A DNA stretch of 47,724 nt from a virus. The notes beneath the pieces are model-generated. The model was not told the DNA's origin. It searched no databases and saw only the letters and a list, made by a program, of their open reading frames with translations. The translations under genes and the position numbers were made by a program. The stretch is from IMG/VR virus record IMGVR_UViG_3300031974_005641, positions 1-47,724 of that record; one strand, 5' to 3'. The stretch's first letter is position 1, and each line of letters starts with the position of its first letter. Below, piece by piece: positions 3,395-47,652 of this stretch.

Positions 3395-3625
3395 TCCTAT
3401 GCCGTATAGTTGCTTCAAGTGCTCCGTTGCAGCCTCTCTCAGCTCCGTCATCGTCGTAACGTTAAAAAGTTTTTCATCGTTCCAATCTCCAGTATCGTAG
3501 AAAGCATGACCAGATCCATCGGGTTCTAAGTGCATCGTCACGTGGGTGTTCAGAATCGACCATTCTTCTTCTGGGCATCCGCAGCCTTCGTCGCTCAGTC
3601 CGCTTTTAAGAAGTTCACAATCCAT
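3389..3625 (-). CDS. hypothetical acidic protein in a cassette
   Basis: A 78-residue acidic protein with no family I recognise; residues 20-45 (WSILNTHVTMHLEPDGSGHAFYD) look like beta strands and the C-terminus (MTELREAATEHLKQLYG) like an amphipathic helix. GAGGT five bases before the ATG at 3625 sets the start. The stop codon sits in the R'' core of attC-like site 4. Cassette genes of unknown function like this are typical of environmental integrons. Confidence 0.75.
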   Translation of the reverse strand: MDCELLKSGLSDEGCGCPEEEWSILNTHVTMHLEPDGSGHAFYDTGDWNDEKLFNVTTMTELREAATEHLKQLYGIGT

Positions 3626-3637
3626 ATCTACCTCGGC

Positions 3638-3702
3638 ACATAACAATCAAAGGCAGCGCGACGGCGCATACAGCGCGCCTCGCCTGCTTGTGGGGGTTAG
3701 AA
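3638..3702 (-). repeat. attC-like site 3
   Basis: Minus strand: R'' TTCTAAC (3702-3696), R' GTTATGT (3644-3638), 65 bp. The 15-base arm AAGCAGGCGAGGCGC pairs fully with GCGCCGTCGCGCTGCCTT, leaving three single bulged bases, all on the 3' arm. Extrahelical bases on one arm are a defining attC feature. Confidence 0.82.
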
Positions 3703-4032: not shown

Positions 4033-4061
4033 TCGCTCGTCCTCAAAGCTCAGGGTTATCC
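3931..4061 (-). repeat. candidate attC-like site 2 (131 bp)
   Basis: Minus strand: R'' GGATAAC (4061-4055), with the stop of the PP-loop gene, and R' GTTAGAA (3937-3931). TTGAGGAC pairs with GTTCCTGCAA with two bulges, but the rest of the arm is weakly paired. It is placed mainly because its two cores match those of the neighbouring units. Confidence 0.4.
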
Positions 4062-4784
4062 GTCCATGCACTCGCATGCCACGTCCGGTGTAAACAGATC
4101 GCCCTGCGCGTCATCAAATTCTAAAAAATCTTTCCAAGCCCATGATCGCGCCAATCCTTTCGCGTGTGTCAACTCTGCGTTTTCCTCCATGTGGATCGCT
4201 CGCGCGATCAGGTCTGGGTGATCTTCCTTGAGCTGCTTAATCTCATGCGGCTTTGTAGCTGGGCAGAAAAAGCAGGCGCTCTTTCCGGGCTGCGGCAAAC
4301 CTGCACGCGCTATCGCCTCAATACATTCCTGCCGCCCCCAGTTCCATTCAACCAGCGGGTATCGCGTGCCCTCGTATTTCTTCCGGTGCGCTTCGCCAGC
4401 ATCAATGCCAACCCAAAACCAAGGGGCGATGTGGCCTTGCTTCTTTAGCCACCGTTTTTGCGGCCTTATCTTGTATCGCTCTGAACAGCTCTTAAAACCA
4501 TAGGCAAGACCCGGCAATGCATTGCGGTTTAAGCAATCCTGCTCCAGCGTTATATGCTCGCGCACGGTCACGATCCGAGGAAAGCCAATTGATTCACACC
4601 AGTCGCTTACCGTATCTCTATGCGCGTAGGTTTCCGGTCTTTCCCCCCCTGTATCGGCAAATACAATAATGTCTGGCCTCTCGCCTCGCTCATACAGGCC
4701 CACCAACATCGCCGTGCTATTAGTCCCAGCTCCGTAGCTGACCACGGATGGACGGATAACAACTGTGTCAACTGCGACATTCAT
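4056..4784 (-). CDS. PAPS reductase-family PP-loop protein
   Basis: A 242-residue adenine nucleotide alpha-hydrolase-fold protein. The PP-loop SYGAGTNSTAML is near residues 16-27, followed by VFADTGGERPETY, and there are cysteines at CSERYK and CFFCPA. Phage relatives are annotated as PAPS reductase family; their substrates are mostly unknown and include nucleic acid thiolation candidates. The ATG at 4784 has GGAG nine bases upstream, but both lie inside attC-like site 1; a GTG at VVSYG just after the core is the alternative. Not linked to other dnd-type genes here. Confidence 0.8.
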   Translation of the reverse strand: MNVAVDTVVIRPSVVSYGAGTNSTAMLVGLYERGERPDIIVFADTGGERPETYAHRDTVSDWCESIGFPRIVTVREHITLEQDCLNRNALPGLAYGFKSCSERYKIRPQKRWLKKQGHIAPWFWVGIDAGEAHRKKYEGTRYPLVEWNWGRQECIEAIARAGLPQPGKSACFFCPATKPHEIKQLKEDHPDLIARAIHMEENAELTHAKGLARSWAWKDFLEFDDAQGDLFTPDVACECMDG

Positions 4785-5645: not shown

Positions 5646-5841
5646 TGGCCACCTCCACACTAATTTTCACTTTTACAATTTCCGTTTTCTGAAACAGATC
5701 TGGCGTTTGCTGATAGCGCAACGATCTGGCCTCGCCTCGGGTGGTGCATACGCTCCAAGCGAGGGGTTTTCAGCCTCCTTCACCTTCAGCGCCCAGCCGT
5801 CGAAGCCGAAGCGCTTGTGGAGCGATAGTCGAGGAAGCGTT

Positions 5842-15170: not shown

Positions 15171-15565
15171 TGCGAAAACCTGATCGAGTTATCAACGGCG
15201 GTTATCTGCAGCGCTGGTACATCATTCCGCGCAATCGATTTATGAATATTTACTTACATCGTTTTGGCGCATCTGACGACGATAGGGCGCTTCACGATCA
15301 CCCTTGGTACAGCGTGAGCTTTCTACTTCGGGGTGAGCTTTTAGAGCATAGCTTTAAGGGTGGCCGCCATATTCCTTGGCTTATACCGGTGTTCCGCACG
15401 GCTAAGTTTGCTCACCGCTTGGAGGTAGTTAAGGGGCCGGTTTGGACCGTATTTATCACTGGGCCAGCTATTCGGCAGTGGGGTTTTTATTGCCACAGCG
15501 GGTGGCGGCATTGGACTAAATTCACTTCCAAGGATGGCAACTCAATTGGGCCGGGGTGCGAATAA
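15170..15565 (+). CDS. small cupin-like phage protein
   Basis: A 131-residue protein with YLHRFGASDDDRALHDHPWYSVSFLLRGELLEHS, i.e. an HDHPW...G pattern like a cupin metal site, then a second half with FAHRLEVVKGPVWTVFITGP. Similar short proteins occur in phage early regions; substrate unknown. ATG 15170 overlaps the CII stop, so translation is coupled. Confidence 0.75.
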   Translation: MRKPDRVINGGYLQRWYIIPRNRFMNIYLHRFGASDDDRALHDHPWYSVSFLLRGELLEHSFKGGRHIPWLIPVFRTAKFAHRLEVVKGPVWTVFITGPAIRQWGFYCHSGWRHWTKFTSKDGNSIGPGCE

Positions 15566-19741: not shown

Positions 19742-19993
19742 ATGGAACCATTACTGCGACAACTCATAGGGCCACTACTCAAACACTTACCATCAGCCGT
19801 CGAGGCCGCCCGTATTGTTGTTGATAAAGACACGCGCAAAGACAACGCAACCAAGGCGAGCACAGCTATTGCCAAAATGGGTATTGGTGCATCGACCGCG
19901 CTGTTCATCGACCCCAATACACCGCCTGATGTTGCGATCATCACGCTAATAGCAAGCCTTGGGTTGTATTTTTACCGCAGGCAGCAAGCGTAA
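19742..19993 (+). CDS. membrane protein of the lysis cassette
   Basis: An 83-residue protein with a hydrophobic C-terminal half (AKMGIGASTALFIDPNTPPDVAIITLIASLGLYFYRRQQA). AAGGAG precedes ATG 19742. Position between endolysin and the holin-like gene suggests a holin partner or antiholin. Its last base overlaps the next ATG (TAATG). Confidence 0.72.
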   Translation: MEPLLRQLIGPLLKHLPSAVEAARIVVDKDTRKDNATKASTAIAKMGIGASTALFIDPNTPPDVAIITLIASLGLYFYRRQQA

Positions 19994-20199
19994 TGGCCCC
20001 GGATAAAGTTTCTACAGCAGCAAGCTATACCGCATCAGTAGTCACCACGGTCGCAGGGTTGACGATAAATGAGTGGGTGGCTATTGGTGGCCTGATGATT
20101 GGTCTATGTACGTTTTTGACAAATGTGTGGTATCGGCGCCAGCAGCTAAAAATCCAGCGCGAGGCCGCAAAAAATGGCCAAAGGCTGGATTTGGGTTAG
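19993..20199 (+). CDS. holin-like protein
   Basis: A 68-residue protein with one strong transmembrane helix (WVAIGGLMIGLCTFLTNVWYRRQQL) and a basic C-terminal tail, like the small holins of P2/HP1-like phages (LTINEWVAIGGL). It should permeabilise the inner membrane for the endolysin. It converges with the Aca2-like gene with a 4-base overlap. Confidence 0.8.
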   Translation: MAPDKVSTAASYTASVVTTVAGLTINEWVAIGGLMIGLCTFLTNVWYRRQQLKIQREAAKNGQRLDLG

Positions 20200-20582
20200 C
20201 TAAGCTCAACATTGCCGCCTTCGCTGAAAACAAACGCGACAGCGGCCTGATGAATGCGCCAGCATACTTGGTTTTTACCGGGGTAATCAGCGGCGTATTG
20301 CTCAAACGTGTGATAGTAATTTAGCGTTAATGTCGCGTTTTCGTCTTCTTGCTCCATGTTGTATTGCTTCTCTGTTAGCTCGCCGACAAGCTCATTGCGC
20401 ATACCGATCAACAAATAAATTTCTGAATCAACGTCTGGCGGCACTTTGGAGCGTCCAGATTCCCAGTATTGCCAAGTACGTGGTGAGACCTTGCCGATTA
20501 ATTCGGCAGCCTCGCTTACATCGAGCATAAGCAACTTGCGGCAGGCTTGTAGCTCAGAATTATTTAGTGTGTTCCAGCTCAT
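20196..20582 (-). CDS. Aca2-like HTH regulator (anti-CRISPR-associated)
   Basis: A 128-residue protein with NNSELQACRKLLMLDVSEAAELIGKVSPRTWQYWESGRSKVPPDVDSEIYLLI, which agrees closely with my memory of Aca2, the DUF1870-type autorepressor of acr operons. The C-terminal NQVCWRIHQAAVAFVFSEG also fits. AAGGA before ATG 20582 sets the start, and the ATG overlaps the stop of the gene before. It is the last gene of a three-gene minus-strand unit placed inside the plus-strand late region. Confidence 0.85.
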   Translation of the reverse strand: MSWNTLNNSELQACRKLLMLDVSEAAELIGKVSPRTWQYWESGRSKVPPDVDSEIYLLIGMRNELVGELTEKQYNMEQEDENATLTLNYYHTFEQYAADYPGKNQVCWRIHQAAVAFVFSEGGNVELS

Positions 20583-21127
20583 AATGAATCCTTTTTTTGC
20601 AATATTGATTTTGCTCCAATCAGGATGCATCTAAACATCCATGGATTATTTAACGCGAGCGCCTTTAATTTGTCTTCTTTAGTGTTTGTTAGTGTTACAA
20701 GATCTTCAATTTTTAAGCCTGCCTTCTTCAGCGACAGGAGACCTCCAATAAATTCCTCTTTGTCTTGAATGTTTAGCAAGTCAAGCACTATTTCTACCGC
20801 TTTAATTTTCCCGTTAGCTTTAATGCTGATGTCATTAAACCGATGCATGTCATGATCTATCTGTGAAACTCCGAGGGCATCGTAAGCAAAGAATAGACGT
20901 TTTTCTGTTTGATTTATTGACATCCTTGCATGCTGCAGCCTCGCCAGCAGGTCTTTGATTTTAATATCATAATCTTTATTGGTATTGTTTTGTTTTAGTG
21001 AAATCAAACTCTCTTCTATTTCTTTGATTTCACTTTTGCATAGCAAAAAGCTGTCGTCGCAACCTCGCTGATTCGCGCAGACTGATGACGCCTTGTTAAT
21101 ACCTTTTTCAAAAATAGAAAAATCCAT
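20579..21127 (-). CDS. unknown protein, candidate anti-CRISPR or counter-defence
   Basis: A 182-residue, highly helical, lysine-rich protein (coiled-coil like at 28-80, then VEIVLDLLNIQDKEEFIGGLLSLKKAGLKIEDLVTLTNTKEDKL). No family recognised. AT-rich DNA unlike the flanking structural genes suggests separate acquisition. It overlaps aca2 by 4 bases, so it is co-translated with it. Guilt by association is the only evidence for an anti-CRISPR role. Confidence 0.7.
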   Translation of the reverse strand: MDFSIFEKGINKASSVCANQRGCDDSFLLCKSEIKEIEESLISLKQNNTNKDYDIKIKDLLARLQHARMSINQTEKRLFFAYDALGVSQIDHDMHRFNDISIKANGKIKAVEIVLDLLNIQDKEEFIGGLLSLKKAGLKIEDLVTLTNTKEDKLKALALNNPWMFRCILIGAKSILQKKDSL

Positions 21128-21175
21128 GACGTACCTATAAAACCAAGTGAAGGCGCCCAGAAGGGCGCTGTGTGA

Positions 21176-21577
21176 TTAGTTAGAAGTATGATCGAAGACA
21201 TAAGCGCGGTTTTCTGGTGAATATTTAAAAACCTTGTTTCCTTCTTTTCTGTATGTCTCGACGTGATTCAAATAGAGCGCTTTACATTTATCAATAATGA
21301 CTACATCAAGTGGAGTAGTTCTTAGTTCTTCGATAGACATTTGAAGATTGTATTCCCAGCCAGAAAAGTGGGGGTAGTTTTCCTCGTTTTCTTCAATAAA
21401 ATTGTGCGCCCAAGAGTACAGAAAAGAGATAACTTCTTCGGCGAAGTCGTAGTTAAAACAAGGAGTAGCGCCGTACTGGTTGTCGAGGAATTTGTGAACG
21501 CGAAAATCAAGCTTAATGCCTGTTTCGGATTCAAGGTCGCTGCGGAATTGTTTAACAAGAGCTTTAGTATTTTTCAT
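21176..21577 (-). CDS. unknown acidic protein, candidate anti-CRISPR
   Basis: A 133-residue acidic protein, first gene behind an operator-bearing promoter and upstream of an Aca2-like gene. It contains DFAEEVISFLYSWAHNFIEENEENYPHFSGWEYN and ends with KVFKYSPENRAYVFDH, a strand motif also seen at the ends of some small anti-defence proteins. AGGTG before ATG 21577 favours it over the GTG at 21586. No known Acr family is recognised. Confidence 0.72.
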   Translation of the reverse strand: MKNTKALVKQFRSDLESETGIKLDFRVHKFLDNQYGATPCFNYDFAEEVISFLYSWAHNFIEENEENYPHFSGWEYNLQMSIEELRTTPLDVVIIDKCKALYLNHVETYRKEGNKVFKYSPENRAYVFDHTSN

Positions 21578-21628
21578 TTTAATCACCTAATTGTGAGTGC
21601 TTCGAGCCAATCTCGTAAGCATGGGTCC

Positions 21629-21657
21629 ATTGTGTTCGTGTTTGCGAACAGTGTCAA
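21629..21657 (-). promoter_or_regulatory. acr-aca promoter with 18-bp operator
   Basis: Minus strand -35 TTGACA (21657-21652), 17-base spacer, -10 CACAAT (21634-21629). The spacer is filled by the inverted repeat TGTTCG-N6-CGAACA (21633-21650). This is the design expected for Aca autorepression. Bases 21658-21792 hold no gene. Confidence 0.75.
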
Positions 21658-21792: not shown

Positions 21793-22356
21793 ATGAAAAT
21801 AGACAATTTCCCGCCCTATAAAAAGGCGAATGTTGACGATCTCATACCGTATGCGAACAACAGTCGGACGCATAATGAGGACCAGGTGGCTCAGATCGCC
21901 GCAAGCATCAAGGAATACGGTTTTACAAACCCCGTTCTGGTTGACGGTTCGAAAGGTGTTATAGCGGGGCATGGTAGGTTGTTGGCCGCAAAAAAGCTCG
22001 GGCTAAAACAGGTTCCGGTCATCGAACTTGGGCATCTAAGTGAGACGCAAAAGAAAGCATATATTATCGCTGATAACAAACTGGCATTAAATGCTGACTG
22101 GAACTATGACGCACTGAAGATTGAGATAGAGGGCTTGGCTGAGGTTGATTTTGATTTAGGTCTTACTGGGTTCTCTGGTGATGAGCTGGGTGATTTATTT
22201 CCCGAAGGAAAAGCTGACGGAGGTGCTGATATCGGGGTTGCCATGGAGGATGGAACGGAATTTTTAGTGGTTGTTGATTGCGTTAGCGAGATGGAGCAGT
22301 CAAAACTATATGATGATTTATGCGCTAAAGGCTACTCTGTGAAGCTGGTGAGCTAA
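21793..22356 (+). CDS. ParB/Srx-domain protein
   Basis: A 187-residue protein. Residues 12-95 are a ParB N-terminal-like domain (LIPYANNSRTHNEDQVAQIAASIKEYGFTNPVLVD, then GVIAGHGRLLAAKKLGLKQVPVI). The C-terminal part (FLVVVDCVSEMEQSKLYDDLCAKGYSVKLVS) is a small domain often found in phage ParB proteins. Such proteins can be NTPases or nucleases. It overlaps the ABC/GNAT gene (TAATG), so both are probably one system. Confidence 0.85.
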   Translation: MKIDNFPPYKKANVDDLIPYANNSRTHNEDQVAQIAASIKEYGFTNPVLVDGSKGVIAGHGRLLAAKKLGLKQVPVIELGHLSETQKKAYIIADNKLALNADWNYDALKIEIEGLAEVDFDLGLTGFSGDELGDLFPEGKADGGADIGVAMEDGTEFLVVVDCVSEMEQSKLYDDLCAKGYSVKLVS

Positions 22357-23456
22357 TGAAAGACTATGAAGTTCTACTTAAAAGCCCGGTTTCGACTTCT
22401 TTCCGGTGTCAAAAAGCAGCAGATAGTTTAGATATAAACACCTCTGAGAAATCAGTTCACCATCTCAAAGTCAGTGCGGATATAAACGCAGACTACAGTA
22501 TCGGATTAATTATTGGTGCGTCTGGATCAGGAAAAACCACACTTGCTAAGCAGATTTTTGGAGAAAAGGTCTTCGAATCTGATTTAGATCAGTCGCTACC
22601 AATTATTGAGCAATTCCCTAGCAATCTTGAGTACGATGATTGCGCGAAGTTATTGTCTGGTGTTGGCCTTACAAGCGTTCCGTGTTGGATCAGGCCGGTC
22701 TATACACTCTCCAACGGTCAAAAAGCGCGGGCAGAGATTGCTTTGAATCTGGCAAAAAATGCTGAGTTGTCTGTGGTTGATGAATGGACTTCGGTTGTAG
22801 ACCGCACTGTCGCCAAAGTGATGAGTTATTGTGTGTCAAAACATATTCGCGCTAGCGGCAAGAAAATTGTTCTGCTGTCCTGCCATTATGACGTATTGGA
22901 GTGGCTTGACCCTGATTGGGTTATTGATTGCAATAAGCAATCTTATACAGATCGGAGGTCACTTAGGCGAGGCCAAAGGAAAGAGAAAATCACTTTCACA
23001 GTCCGTCGCGTCGGGCGCGATACATGGCAAAGATTTAGCAAGTATCATTATCTAAGCAAAAACCTTCCAGGCGGCCATATTGAATGTTTTGGCCTGTTTT
23101 ATGGCGACGAGCAGGTAGGGTTTACGTGCTTCGCTAATTACGTTCCTTGGCGTGACAAAAACAAATCTAAGCCGATGCATTCAAACCGCGTGGTGATTCA
23201 TCCAGACTACGCAGGATTCGGCTTGGGGATTCGATTTGTAAATGAGTGCAGTGCCATCATGGAGAATGAAGGTTTTGCGGTATACGCGAAACTAAGCGCG
23301 ACACCGCTAGTTAAAGCACGATTAAAGCAGCCTGAGAGATGGAGGCTGATAAAGGTAGGACGCGACATGAAGGTTAGAAAAACCGGAAACATGTCGCGGA
23401 GTTCGGGGTTCAGATCAAAAGTTAAGACGTACACTTTCCGCTATATAGCTGCTTAG
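22356..23456 (+). CDS. ABC-ATPase / GNAT acetyltransferase fusion
   Basis: A 366-residue fusion. Residues 45-195 form an ABC ATPase with Walker A GASGSGKT (54-61), signature LSNGQKARAE (118-127), Walker B SVVDEW (139-144) and H-loop His177; no membrane part is present. Residues 212-350 form a GNAT domain (GLFYGDEQVGFTCFANYV, HPDYAGFGLGIRFV). GNAT-fold proteins such as Mom of phage Mu modify DNA bases, and the ParB neighbour suggests a DNA substrate; this is inference. AT-rich relative to flanking genes. Confidence 0.85.
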   Translation: MKDYEVLLKSPVSTSFRCQKAADSLDINTSEKSVHHLKVSADINADYSIGLIIGASGSGKTTLAKQIFGEKVFESDLDQSLPIIEQFPSNLEYDDCAKLLSGVGLTSVPCWIRPVYTLSNGQKARAEIALNLAKNAELSVVDEWTSVVDRTVAKVMSYCVSKHIRASGKKIVLLSCHYDVLEWLDPDWVIDCNKQSYTDRRSLRRGQRKEKITFTVRRVGRDTWQRFSKYHYLSKNLPGGHIECFGLFYGDEQVGFTCFANYVPWRDKNKSKPMHSNRVVIHPDYAGFGLGIRFVNECSAIMENEGFAVYAKLSATPLVKARLKQPERWRLIKVGRDMKVRKTGNMSRSSGFRSKVKTYTFRYIAA

Positions 23457-23795
23457 TTCTTCAAGTACATCTGCCGGCGCTTTAAAAAGCATTGTTCGGC
23501 CTTTTATTGAAATATTCTTGACAGGGATTACCCTCCCGATAACCCAAGCATAATGTCTTTCTCTCCAATGCGTCATCGCTTTTTCGGATAAGCCAGGCGT
23601 AAAAGGTACGACGTCAAGAAGCTCGATAATGCATATAGTTTGCCCTAGAGGGTGATCGCAAGGCCGCGCCGGAACTTTTGATGAACAGATTAATAGGGGG
23701 CCACGATGCTTTGTGGCCCAGCTTCTTATTTCGCAAGTCTTCACGCCTTGCAGAATATGCTCGGCGTGAGGTTGCTTTATCGAAAGCGCCTTCAT
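23415..23795 (-). CDS. ASCH-domain protein (second copy)
   Basis: A 126-residue ASCH protein with MKALSIKQPHAEHILQGVKTCEIRSWATKHRGPLLICSS and a later VIGRVIPVK strand. ASCH domains bind nucleic acids or modified nucleosides. It converges with the ABC/GNAT gene, overlapping it by 42 bases, and its ATG overlaps the DUF932 stop. Confidence 0.87.
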   Translation of the reverse strand: MKALSIKQPHAEHILQGVKTCEIRSWATKHRGPLLICSSKVPARPCDHPLGQTICIIELLDVVPFTPGLSEKAMTHWRERHYAWVIGRVIPVKNISIKGRTMLFKAPADVLEELSSYIAESVRLNF

Positions 23796-24604
23796 GCGGC
23801 GCGAAGCTCATTGTAGAAGTTGTTAGCAGTTTCCCAGATCGCCTTATTGGCCAACACGTTTTGGCGGGGCGATGTAATACCGCGAGTTCGGCGTGTTTTG
23901 TTATTTAATGAAGTAGTTTCAAGCCCTCCGCGAATCAATCCTTCTTGGATTGTATTGAGCGTGTTCCACATTGATGGGCGACTGTCTTCGCGGCGATTGG
24001 GCGTAATAACTTCGTCAAGGTCGAACATTTTTGCTCGGTCATCGCCGTGAACTGCCTTCAAAGTTCTGGAAGCCAACTCTATTCGCTTTGGCTTATTAAG
24101 AAGTAGACCATTGAATTTTGCCATTTGGCTTTCAATCATTGGCACAGATTCGATGACTTCATAGGTGCCTTCGATTATATCGTCCAGTACGTTGGGTGTA
24201 TGGCGGTATTTTTTTGTTTCAAACATGGAGTCAGCGATAACCATCCCGTTGCTACAAACAAGCCGAAACAGCCCGGCGCTCAATGCAAAGCCGCTAGCTT
24301 TATTGTGTGAATTCATTAGCACGATTTCAGGAAGTGAATCGCCAACCATGATCGGCTTTTGGTCGACGTGGCGCAGACGTACATAGTGACGGTTTGTTGC
24401 ATCGCGCTCTTCAGTTTTTCCGCGTGATTGCATTGCTTCGGTTGGGAACCAACCTTCTTTAGCGAGGCTTGTTATTACGTCCTTTGTACTGACAAAGCCG
24501 TATTTTTCTGTCGTTTTGCTGTGAGGTAAGTCTGCAAAAATAGCAGGTGCGCGGTTGTGCATTTGCTGGGCATTCATAGCCCATGAAGGTAGTTGAATTG
24601 ACAT
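23792..24604 (-). CDS. DUF932 phage/plasmid-like protein
   Basis: A 270-residue DUF932-type protein: HYVRLRHVDQKPIMVGDSLPEIVLMNSHNKASGFALSAGLFRLVCSNGMVIADSMFETKKYRHT is the typical core. Function unknown; such genes are common on plasmids and phages. AAGGAG before ATG 24604. Coupled to the ASCH gene. Confidence 0.9.
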   Translation of the reverse strand: MSIQLPSWAMNAQQMHNRAPAIFADLPHSKTTEKYGFVSTKDVITSLAKEGWFPTEAMQSRGKTEERDATNRHYVRLRHVDQKPIMVGDSLPEIVLMNSHNKASGFALSAGLFRLVCSNGMVIADSMFETKKYRHTPNVLDDIIEGTYEVIESVPMIESQMAKFNGLLLNKPKRIELASRTLKAVHGDDRAKMFDLDEVITPNRREDSRPSMWNTLNTIQEGLIRGGLETTSLNNKTRRTRGITSPRQNVLANKAIWETANNFYNELRAA

Positions 24605-47596: not shown

Positions 47597-47652
47597 TGGC
47601 TTTTAACCAATTGGTCGATGGTTCGAATCCATCACGGCCCACCATTTTCTCT
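47597..47652 (+). repeat. attR core (56 bp), tRNA-Lys remnant
   Basis: Identical to attL 906-961. It keeps the anticodon loop, T-arm and acceptor 3' strand, but the upstream sequence is phage DNA, so no tRNA is made from it. Confidence 0.96.

Follow-up and report, generated by a model that had tools for sequence, protein, structure and literature searches.

RNA binding by Aca2 reportedly blocks the translation of acr mRNA, and a 2024 paper is said to have found this widely in the Aca2 family. In a complex described at 2.5 Å with 42 nucleotides, Aca2 binds RNA (PMC11239489), and the key DNA-contact arginine of the Aca2 of phage ZF40 is reported to be R30 (PMC8434428). Taken as a whole, Aca2-like genes are a weak marker of acr genes; of the 1223 Aca2-like proteins in a published survey, 35 were described as lying near known acr genes (PMC9410906). 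Inhibitors of type II-C are likewise described as marked by Aca2 (PMC6282205), so the CRISPR type targeted cannot be read from Aca2.

The locus described here lies in a virus record of 47,724 bases, which was analysed over its whole length and is referred to below as the window. Its three-gene unit is probably a genuine Aca2-controlled acr-type operon with shut-off at two levels, in which a protein of 133 amino acids is the likely effector. The features that can be read directly from the DNA are the identity of Aca2, the operator, the leader element, the gene order and the recurrence of the 133-aa family.

Prophage setting and operon layout

The window is a prophage in its integrated form, with host DNA at its flanks. 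The host flank carries a queC gene (1–678; PF06508, 3e-78), followed by a tRNA-Lys (879–953) and a phage integrase (1023–2051). The 3′ end of the tRNA-Lys is repeated exactly, in direct orientation, over 56 bp at 906–961 and 47597–47652; the two copies read as attL and attR, placing both attachment sites within the record.

The three-gene minus-strand unit amid plus-strand genes, proposed in the original prediction, was confirmed at 21577–20196. It encodes proteins of 133, 182 and 128 aa: P0003, the best candidate for an Acr or counter-defence protein, is the first gene behind the leader (21176–21577); P0002, an orphan with a pI of 8.3, is the second (20579–21127); and P0001, the aca2 gene for a 128-aa helix-turn-helix (HTH) protein and putative autoregulator, is the third (20196–20582). 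On one side, a plus-strand holin gene (19993–20199; phrog_20, 4e-20) ends just past the operon, and a plus-strand ParB-like gene (21793–22356) forms the flank on the other side. The start codon of aca2 overlaps the stop codon of the 182-aa gene (ATGA), and 48 bases separate the 133-aa and 182-aa genes. The two upstream genes are AT-rich, as had been claimed; the GC content of the 182-aa gene (36.6%) is below that of all sampled windows of equal length and that of the 133-aa gene (38.6%) falls at about the first percentile, compared with 50.1% for the window.

The 48-base gap holds a GC-rich hairpin, GCGCCC-TTCT-GGGCGC (21153–21168), which, with its surroundings, folds better than 199 of 200 shuffled sequences. 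It is perhaps an attenuator or a processing site through which the 182-aa gene and aca2 are expressed less strongly.

Directly behind the ParB-like gene lies a gene (22356–23456) for a 366-aa protein in which an ABC-type ATPase domain is fused to a C-terminal acetyltransferase-like part; it matches phrog_11143 (2.4e-83), for which no function is annotated in that resource. The two genes beside the operon are possibly a DNA-modification or anti-restriction pair. Genes with an ASCH domain and a DUF932 domain are found at 23415–24604, on the minus strand inside the plus-strand region.

The regulator

The third protein had been called Aca2-like, a claim that the profile searches bear out. It matches PF08965 (Aca2_YdiL) at 6.7e-27 over positions 1–117 of 118, thus covering both the HTH and the C-terminal dimerisation domain at full length. 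Against PDB sequences, it matches four Aca2 entries, 8w35, 7vjo and 7b5j among them, at 1.7e-28 to 4.4e-27, versus 2.6e-6 for YdiL (1s4k). It is 47% identical to the Aca2 of ZF40, and its R35, invariant in our alignment A1, aligns to ZF40 R30. To judge from these matches, the 128-aa protein is Aca2, nearer to Aca2 than to YdiL.

Two other readings of the regulator were weighed against this assignment. According to the first, it would be a YdiL-like regulator with unrelated cargo and no role in defence. PF08965 does include YdiL, and most Aca2-like genes in the survey cited above lie away from known acr genes (35/1223 near; PMC9410906), but the PDB scores favour Aca2 by some 22 orders of magnitude and the operator and leader described below fit the acr-aca2 design, making this reading very improbable. 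According to the second, the unit would be a toxin-antitoxin-like or other lysogeny module, with the 182-aa or 133-aa protein acting as a toxin or altering the host, and the Aca2-like protein serving as regulator or antitoxin. An operon with the effector first, an HTH regulator last and a stop/start overlap would also suit a type II toxin-antitoxin system, and the regulator has a weak match to the MqsA family (0.017); the likeness to toxin-antitoxin operons and the resemblance between the structures of Aca2 and MqsA are discussed in PMC9410906. However, family searches of the operon proteins yielded no toxin family match, and the leader and operator fall in the Aca2 set that includes proven acr operons. 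A toxin-antitoxin-like module is, thus, improbable, if less so than a YdiL-like regulator with unrelated cargo.

Promoter, operator and leader RNA

A sigma-70 type promoter, TTGACA-17-CACAAT, precedes the operon on the minus strand (21657–21629), with its −35 box at 21657–21652 and its −10 box at 21634–21629; promoter-like matches overall are not enriched in the stretch (3, versus 3.4 in shuffles). The promoter contains a putative Aca2 operator, TGTTCG-N6-CGAACA (21633–21650), which sits in the −35/−10 spacer and extends two bases into the −10 box. The inverted repeat predicted between the two boxes is real, but its description as a perfect 18-bp repeat was ruled out: it consists of two perfect 6-bp arms (21633–21638 and 21645–21650) around a 6-bp spacer. 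The exact pattern occurs once in the window, and simple arithmetic for 12 fixed bases in 47.7 kb gives a chance expectation of about 0.003. With two mismatches allowed, the window yields three matches, close to the 2.2 expected, so that the exact form alone is informative. The promoter of the ZF40 acrIF8-aca2 operon carries TGTTCGCGATTGCGAACA in the same place, with the same half-sites, and the half-sites TGTTCG/CGAACA are also present in a Shewanella plasmid operon (L047) and in a second viral record, L074.

The operon also has a second control element that the original prediction did not contain, a tandem-hairpin leader RNA. The whole element (21575–21626, minus strand) runs up to the start codon (ATG) of the 133-aa gene. 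In the predicted fold, hairpin 1 (21598–21621), a 9-bp stem with one bulged A and the loop AUUGG, is followed by one unpaired base and by hairpin 2 over the ribosome-binding site. Hairpin 2 (21583–21596), to which the model matches also point, has a 4-bp stem, and its loop and 3′ arm contain the Shine-Dalgarno sequence AGGUGA (21588–21583). A 15-base core of hairpin 1, CGAGATTGGCTCGAA, is common to the window, L006 and L074. The ZF40 leader folds in a similar manner, without the bulge. The fold of the window leader is only modestly better than that of shuffled sequences (z −1.7, 11/200), and hairpin 2 has only 4 bp.

A covariance model (R1) was made from 22 aligned leaders of other Aca2 loci, leaving the window out. 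When both window strands were searched, R1 found the leader (21626–21575) at 20.9 bits (E 6.5e-6), its sole match below E 0.01; the runner-up had an E of 0.021. An enlarged model (R2), for which 27 leaders from 23 loci were used and the window was once more left out, found the leader at 23.4 bits (E 2.5e-7) and nothing else in the window up to E 10. An R1 match at position 15527 of the window (12.8 bits) is probably due to chance, as is a match at 2734–2767 of L074 (15.8 bits with R1, 19.7 bits with R2), which falls in a coding region. Given the latter score, 20–23 bits is above noise, though not far above it, and the E-values of the models are rough, so score and position have to be weighed jointly.

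Covariation provides further evidence. In an alignment of 31 distinct rows (A3), 86.8% of the cells were paired, versus 67.5% after shuffling, 11 of the 12 pairs changed on both sides, and none of 500 shuffles equalled the observed value of any measure; this alignment included a few weak, probably chance rows. The corresponding figures for a cleaner set (A5) were 87.4% and 8 of 12 pairs, and both alignments were fitted to the model and are hence biased towards it. On this comparative evidence, the leader is a structural element supported by covariation.

Genes carried at leader-bearing loci

Outside the window, a clear leader was present at 24 loci, counting copies of a contig once (L002, L003, L004, L006, L007, L009, L010, L011, L012, L013, L014, L017, L018, L020, L021, L022, L023, L024, L025, L047, L048, L049, L050 and L074). 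L107, which has a weak leader, was left out, and L004 and L024, with equal leader scores, are apparently near-identical. The leader-led gene resembles a known Acr at eight of the 24: AcrIF8 at L002 (Pfam, 2e-55; PDB 6vqw), an AcrIF8-like protein at L021 (Pfam, 4.9e-7, above its cut-off), AcrIF9 at L017 (PDB) and, by BLAST to L017 at 47–94%, at L012, L013 and L050, AcrIF11 at L010 (NCBIfam, 3e-51) and AcrIF10 at L020 (NCBIfam, 1.7e-51). At the other 16, the leader-led genes gave no match to a known Acr in the comparisons applied, the genes of L004, L007 and L009 falling outside the family search. That search covered 18 loci with Pfam and NCBIfam and L074 with Pfam; neither was applied to L004, L007, L009, L012 or L050, and the PDB controls for Acr proteins were the genes of L002 and L017.

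In this set, the leader model marks acr-like genes more sharply than aca2 does by itself, at 8/24 versus about 3% in the published survey, the two samples being different in kind. Searches with it can flag more candidate operons, and here the leader sequence led to the sole relative of the otherwise orphan 133-aa protein. The presence of AcrIF8, AcrIF9, AcrIF10 and AcrIF11 at these loci makes type I-F a first guess, by analogy, for the CRISPR type that the operon might target.

The same loci bear on another explanation, in which both upstream proteins inhibit a restriction-modification or other anti-phage system and Aca2 is a generic off-switch. Neither protein is Acr-like, ParB-like, ABC-ATPase fusion, ASCH and DUF932 genes lie nearby, acr loci are described as clustering with other anti-defence genes (PMC7648647), and at 16 of the 24 loci with a clear leader, none of the leader-led genes could be matched to a known Acr. 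Conversely, the identified leader-led genes are anti-CRISPR genes in eight cases out of eight, although known families alone could be identified. We consider counter-defence against such non-CRISPR systems to be unlikely, while giving it more weight than the toxin-antitoxin-like module.

A scan of viral contigs for CGAGATTGGCTCGAA returned 47 stretches, of which only L059 (the same contig as L006) and L074 had an Aca2 relative, and, when 46 loci with the bare 15-base core were scored with R1, only L074 exceeded 16.2 bits. The variant CGAGATVGGCTCGAA occurred in at least 120 stretches of viral contigs and added no Aca2 relative among the matches listed. The operator pattern gave 13 stretches, with an Aca2 relative only in L074 and L107, the latter having a weak leader score (13.6 bits). 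As most of these stretches lack an Aca2 relative, short motifs alone are not specific.

Some loci carry more than one leader element. On the Shewanella baltica plasmid (L047), a second Aca2-type leader (3475–3526) lies downstream of aca2, ahead of a gene for an uncharacterised 225-aa protein; Aca2 may, thus, control genes outside its own operon. At L009, three leader elements (3605–3659, 4057–4110 and 5771–5826) surround a single Aca2-like gene, and two or more of them directly precede separate genes; L018, L020 and L022 have two elements each.

The two upstream proteins

The 133-aa protein has no match to a known family or known Acr in Pfam, NCBIfam, PHROGs or PADLOC and no meaningful match in the PDB. 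No relatives were detected in phages (tblastn), viral contigs (peptide patterns), plasmids, the 27 Aca2-bearing records or, by a search reaching close relatives only, genome contigs. Its one relative was found in L074 (IMGVR_UViG_3300032277_002281), a record retrieved solely through the 15-base core of hairpin 1. A 256-aa protein encoded there aligns through its first 96 residues with the 133-aa protein, at 33% identity over 95 positions; the E-value is 9e-14 for the pair and 3.7e-10 in a search of 8590 reading frames, and the two proteins have the motif DFRxHxFLxNQYGxxPxFxYxxAE in common. A profile of the pair retrieved L074 itself and nothing else from viral contigs, and the 256-aa protein has no relative in phages or plasmids.

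In L074, a promoter with TGTTCG-N6-CGAACA is followed by a leader (44.7 bits), the 256-aa gene and a gene for Aca2 (PF08965, 4.2e-13). The homologue thus comes first behind operator and leader, followed by aca2, which indicates that the 133-aa family recurs in the same place in a second Aca2 operon; L074 is the single case of this recurrence, a thin basis. The best reading of these comparisons is that the 133-aa protein founds a new candidate family of Acr or counter-defence proteins, and it is most likely an anti-CRISPR or other anti-defence protein.

For the 182-aa protein, the searches gave no family match, no PDB match worth counting and no match to a known Acr. No relative was found in phages (tblastn), plasmids, viral contigs (peptide patterns), the 27 Aca2-bearing records or, with a search reaching close relatives only, genome contigs, and its recurrence in aca operons was sought and not found. 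It is a candidate for a second effector or a helper. We infer a counter-defence role with good reason for the 133-aa protein and with less for the 182-aa protein. AlphaFold models of both upstream proteins, made without an alignment, were unusable (pLDDT 42.9 and 51.8).

The interpretation of the locus as an anti-CRISPR operon marked by an Aca2-like gene, thus, held in part: Aca2, an operator of the proven acr-aca2 type, the leader and the recurrence in L074 speak for it, and the match to a known Acr is missing. Its regulatory half is well supported, and the leader RNA strengthens it.

Proposed mechanism

On entry of the phage DNA, the strong promoter would have the 133-aa and 182-aa proteins, which are predicted to act against host defence, made in a burst. 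Aca2, encoded by the last gene, would then turn the operon off at two levels. Transcription would be repressed by Aca2 bound to TGTTCG-N6-CGAACA in the promoter spacer, and translation by Aca2 bound to the tandem hairpins of the leader, where it would mask the ribosome-binding site ahead of the 133-aa gene.

It is also conceivable, though we think it unlikely, that the 133-aa and 182-aa proteins jointly counter a defence not yet linked to Aca2 operons, with shut-off at the DNA and RNA levels and a new family in the 133-aa protein. If the 133-aa protein works as the preferred reading of an Aca2-controlled acr-type operon predicts, it would represent a new anti-CRISPR or counter-defence family, in an operon equipped with an operator plus an RNA leader.

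Comparison with known systems

YdiL (PDB 1s4k) belongs to the same Pfam family as the regulator, but its similarity to it is far weaker (2.6e-6), and it is described as standing alone, outside a prophage (PMC8434428).

The acrIF8-aca2 operon of the Pectobacterium phage ZF40 (NC_019522) resembles the window operon in its Aca2 (47% identical), its identical half-sites TGTTCG/CGAACA, its two leader hairpins in tandem, of which the second covers the ribosome-binding site, the position of aca2 behind the acr gene and the adjoining lysis genes. It has one acr gene (AcrIF8), whereas the window operon has two unrelated candidate proteins before aca2, and it is directed away from its lysis genes, whereas the window operon is directed towards the holin gene.

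L074 has in common with the window the operator TGTTCG-N6-CGAACA, a leader with the 15-base core and a homologous first gene followed by Aca2. It differs in that its first protein, of 256 aa, continues into an additional C-terminal part, there is no 182-aa gene, and its Aca2 is 34% identical to that of the window.

The aca2 operons with AcrIF9, AcrIF10 and AcrIF11 (L017, L020 and L010, respectively) also have a palindromic promoter operator and a tandem-hairpin leader, with a small leader-led gene and an Aca2-like gene behind it; the Acr proteins of these three operons are known ones, with no relationship to the proteins of the window. The window operon is probably an acr-type Aca2 operon, of a known kind with new candidate effectors.
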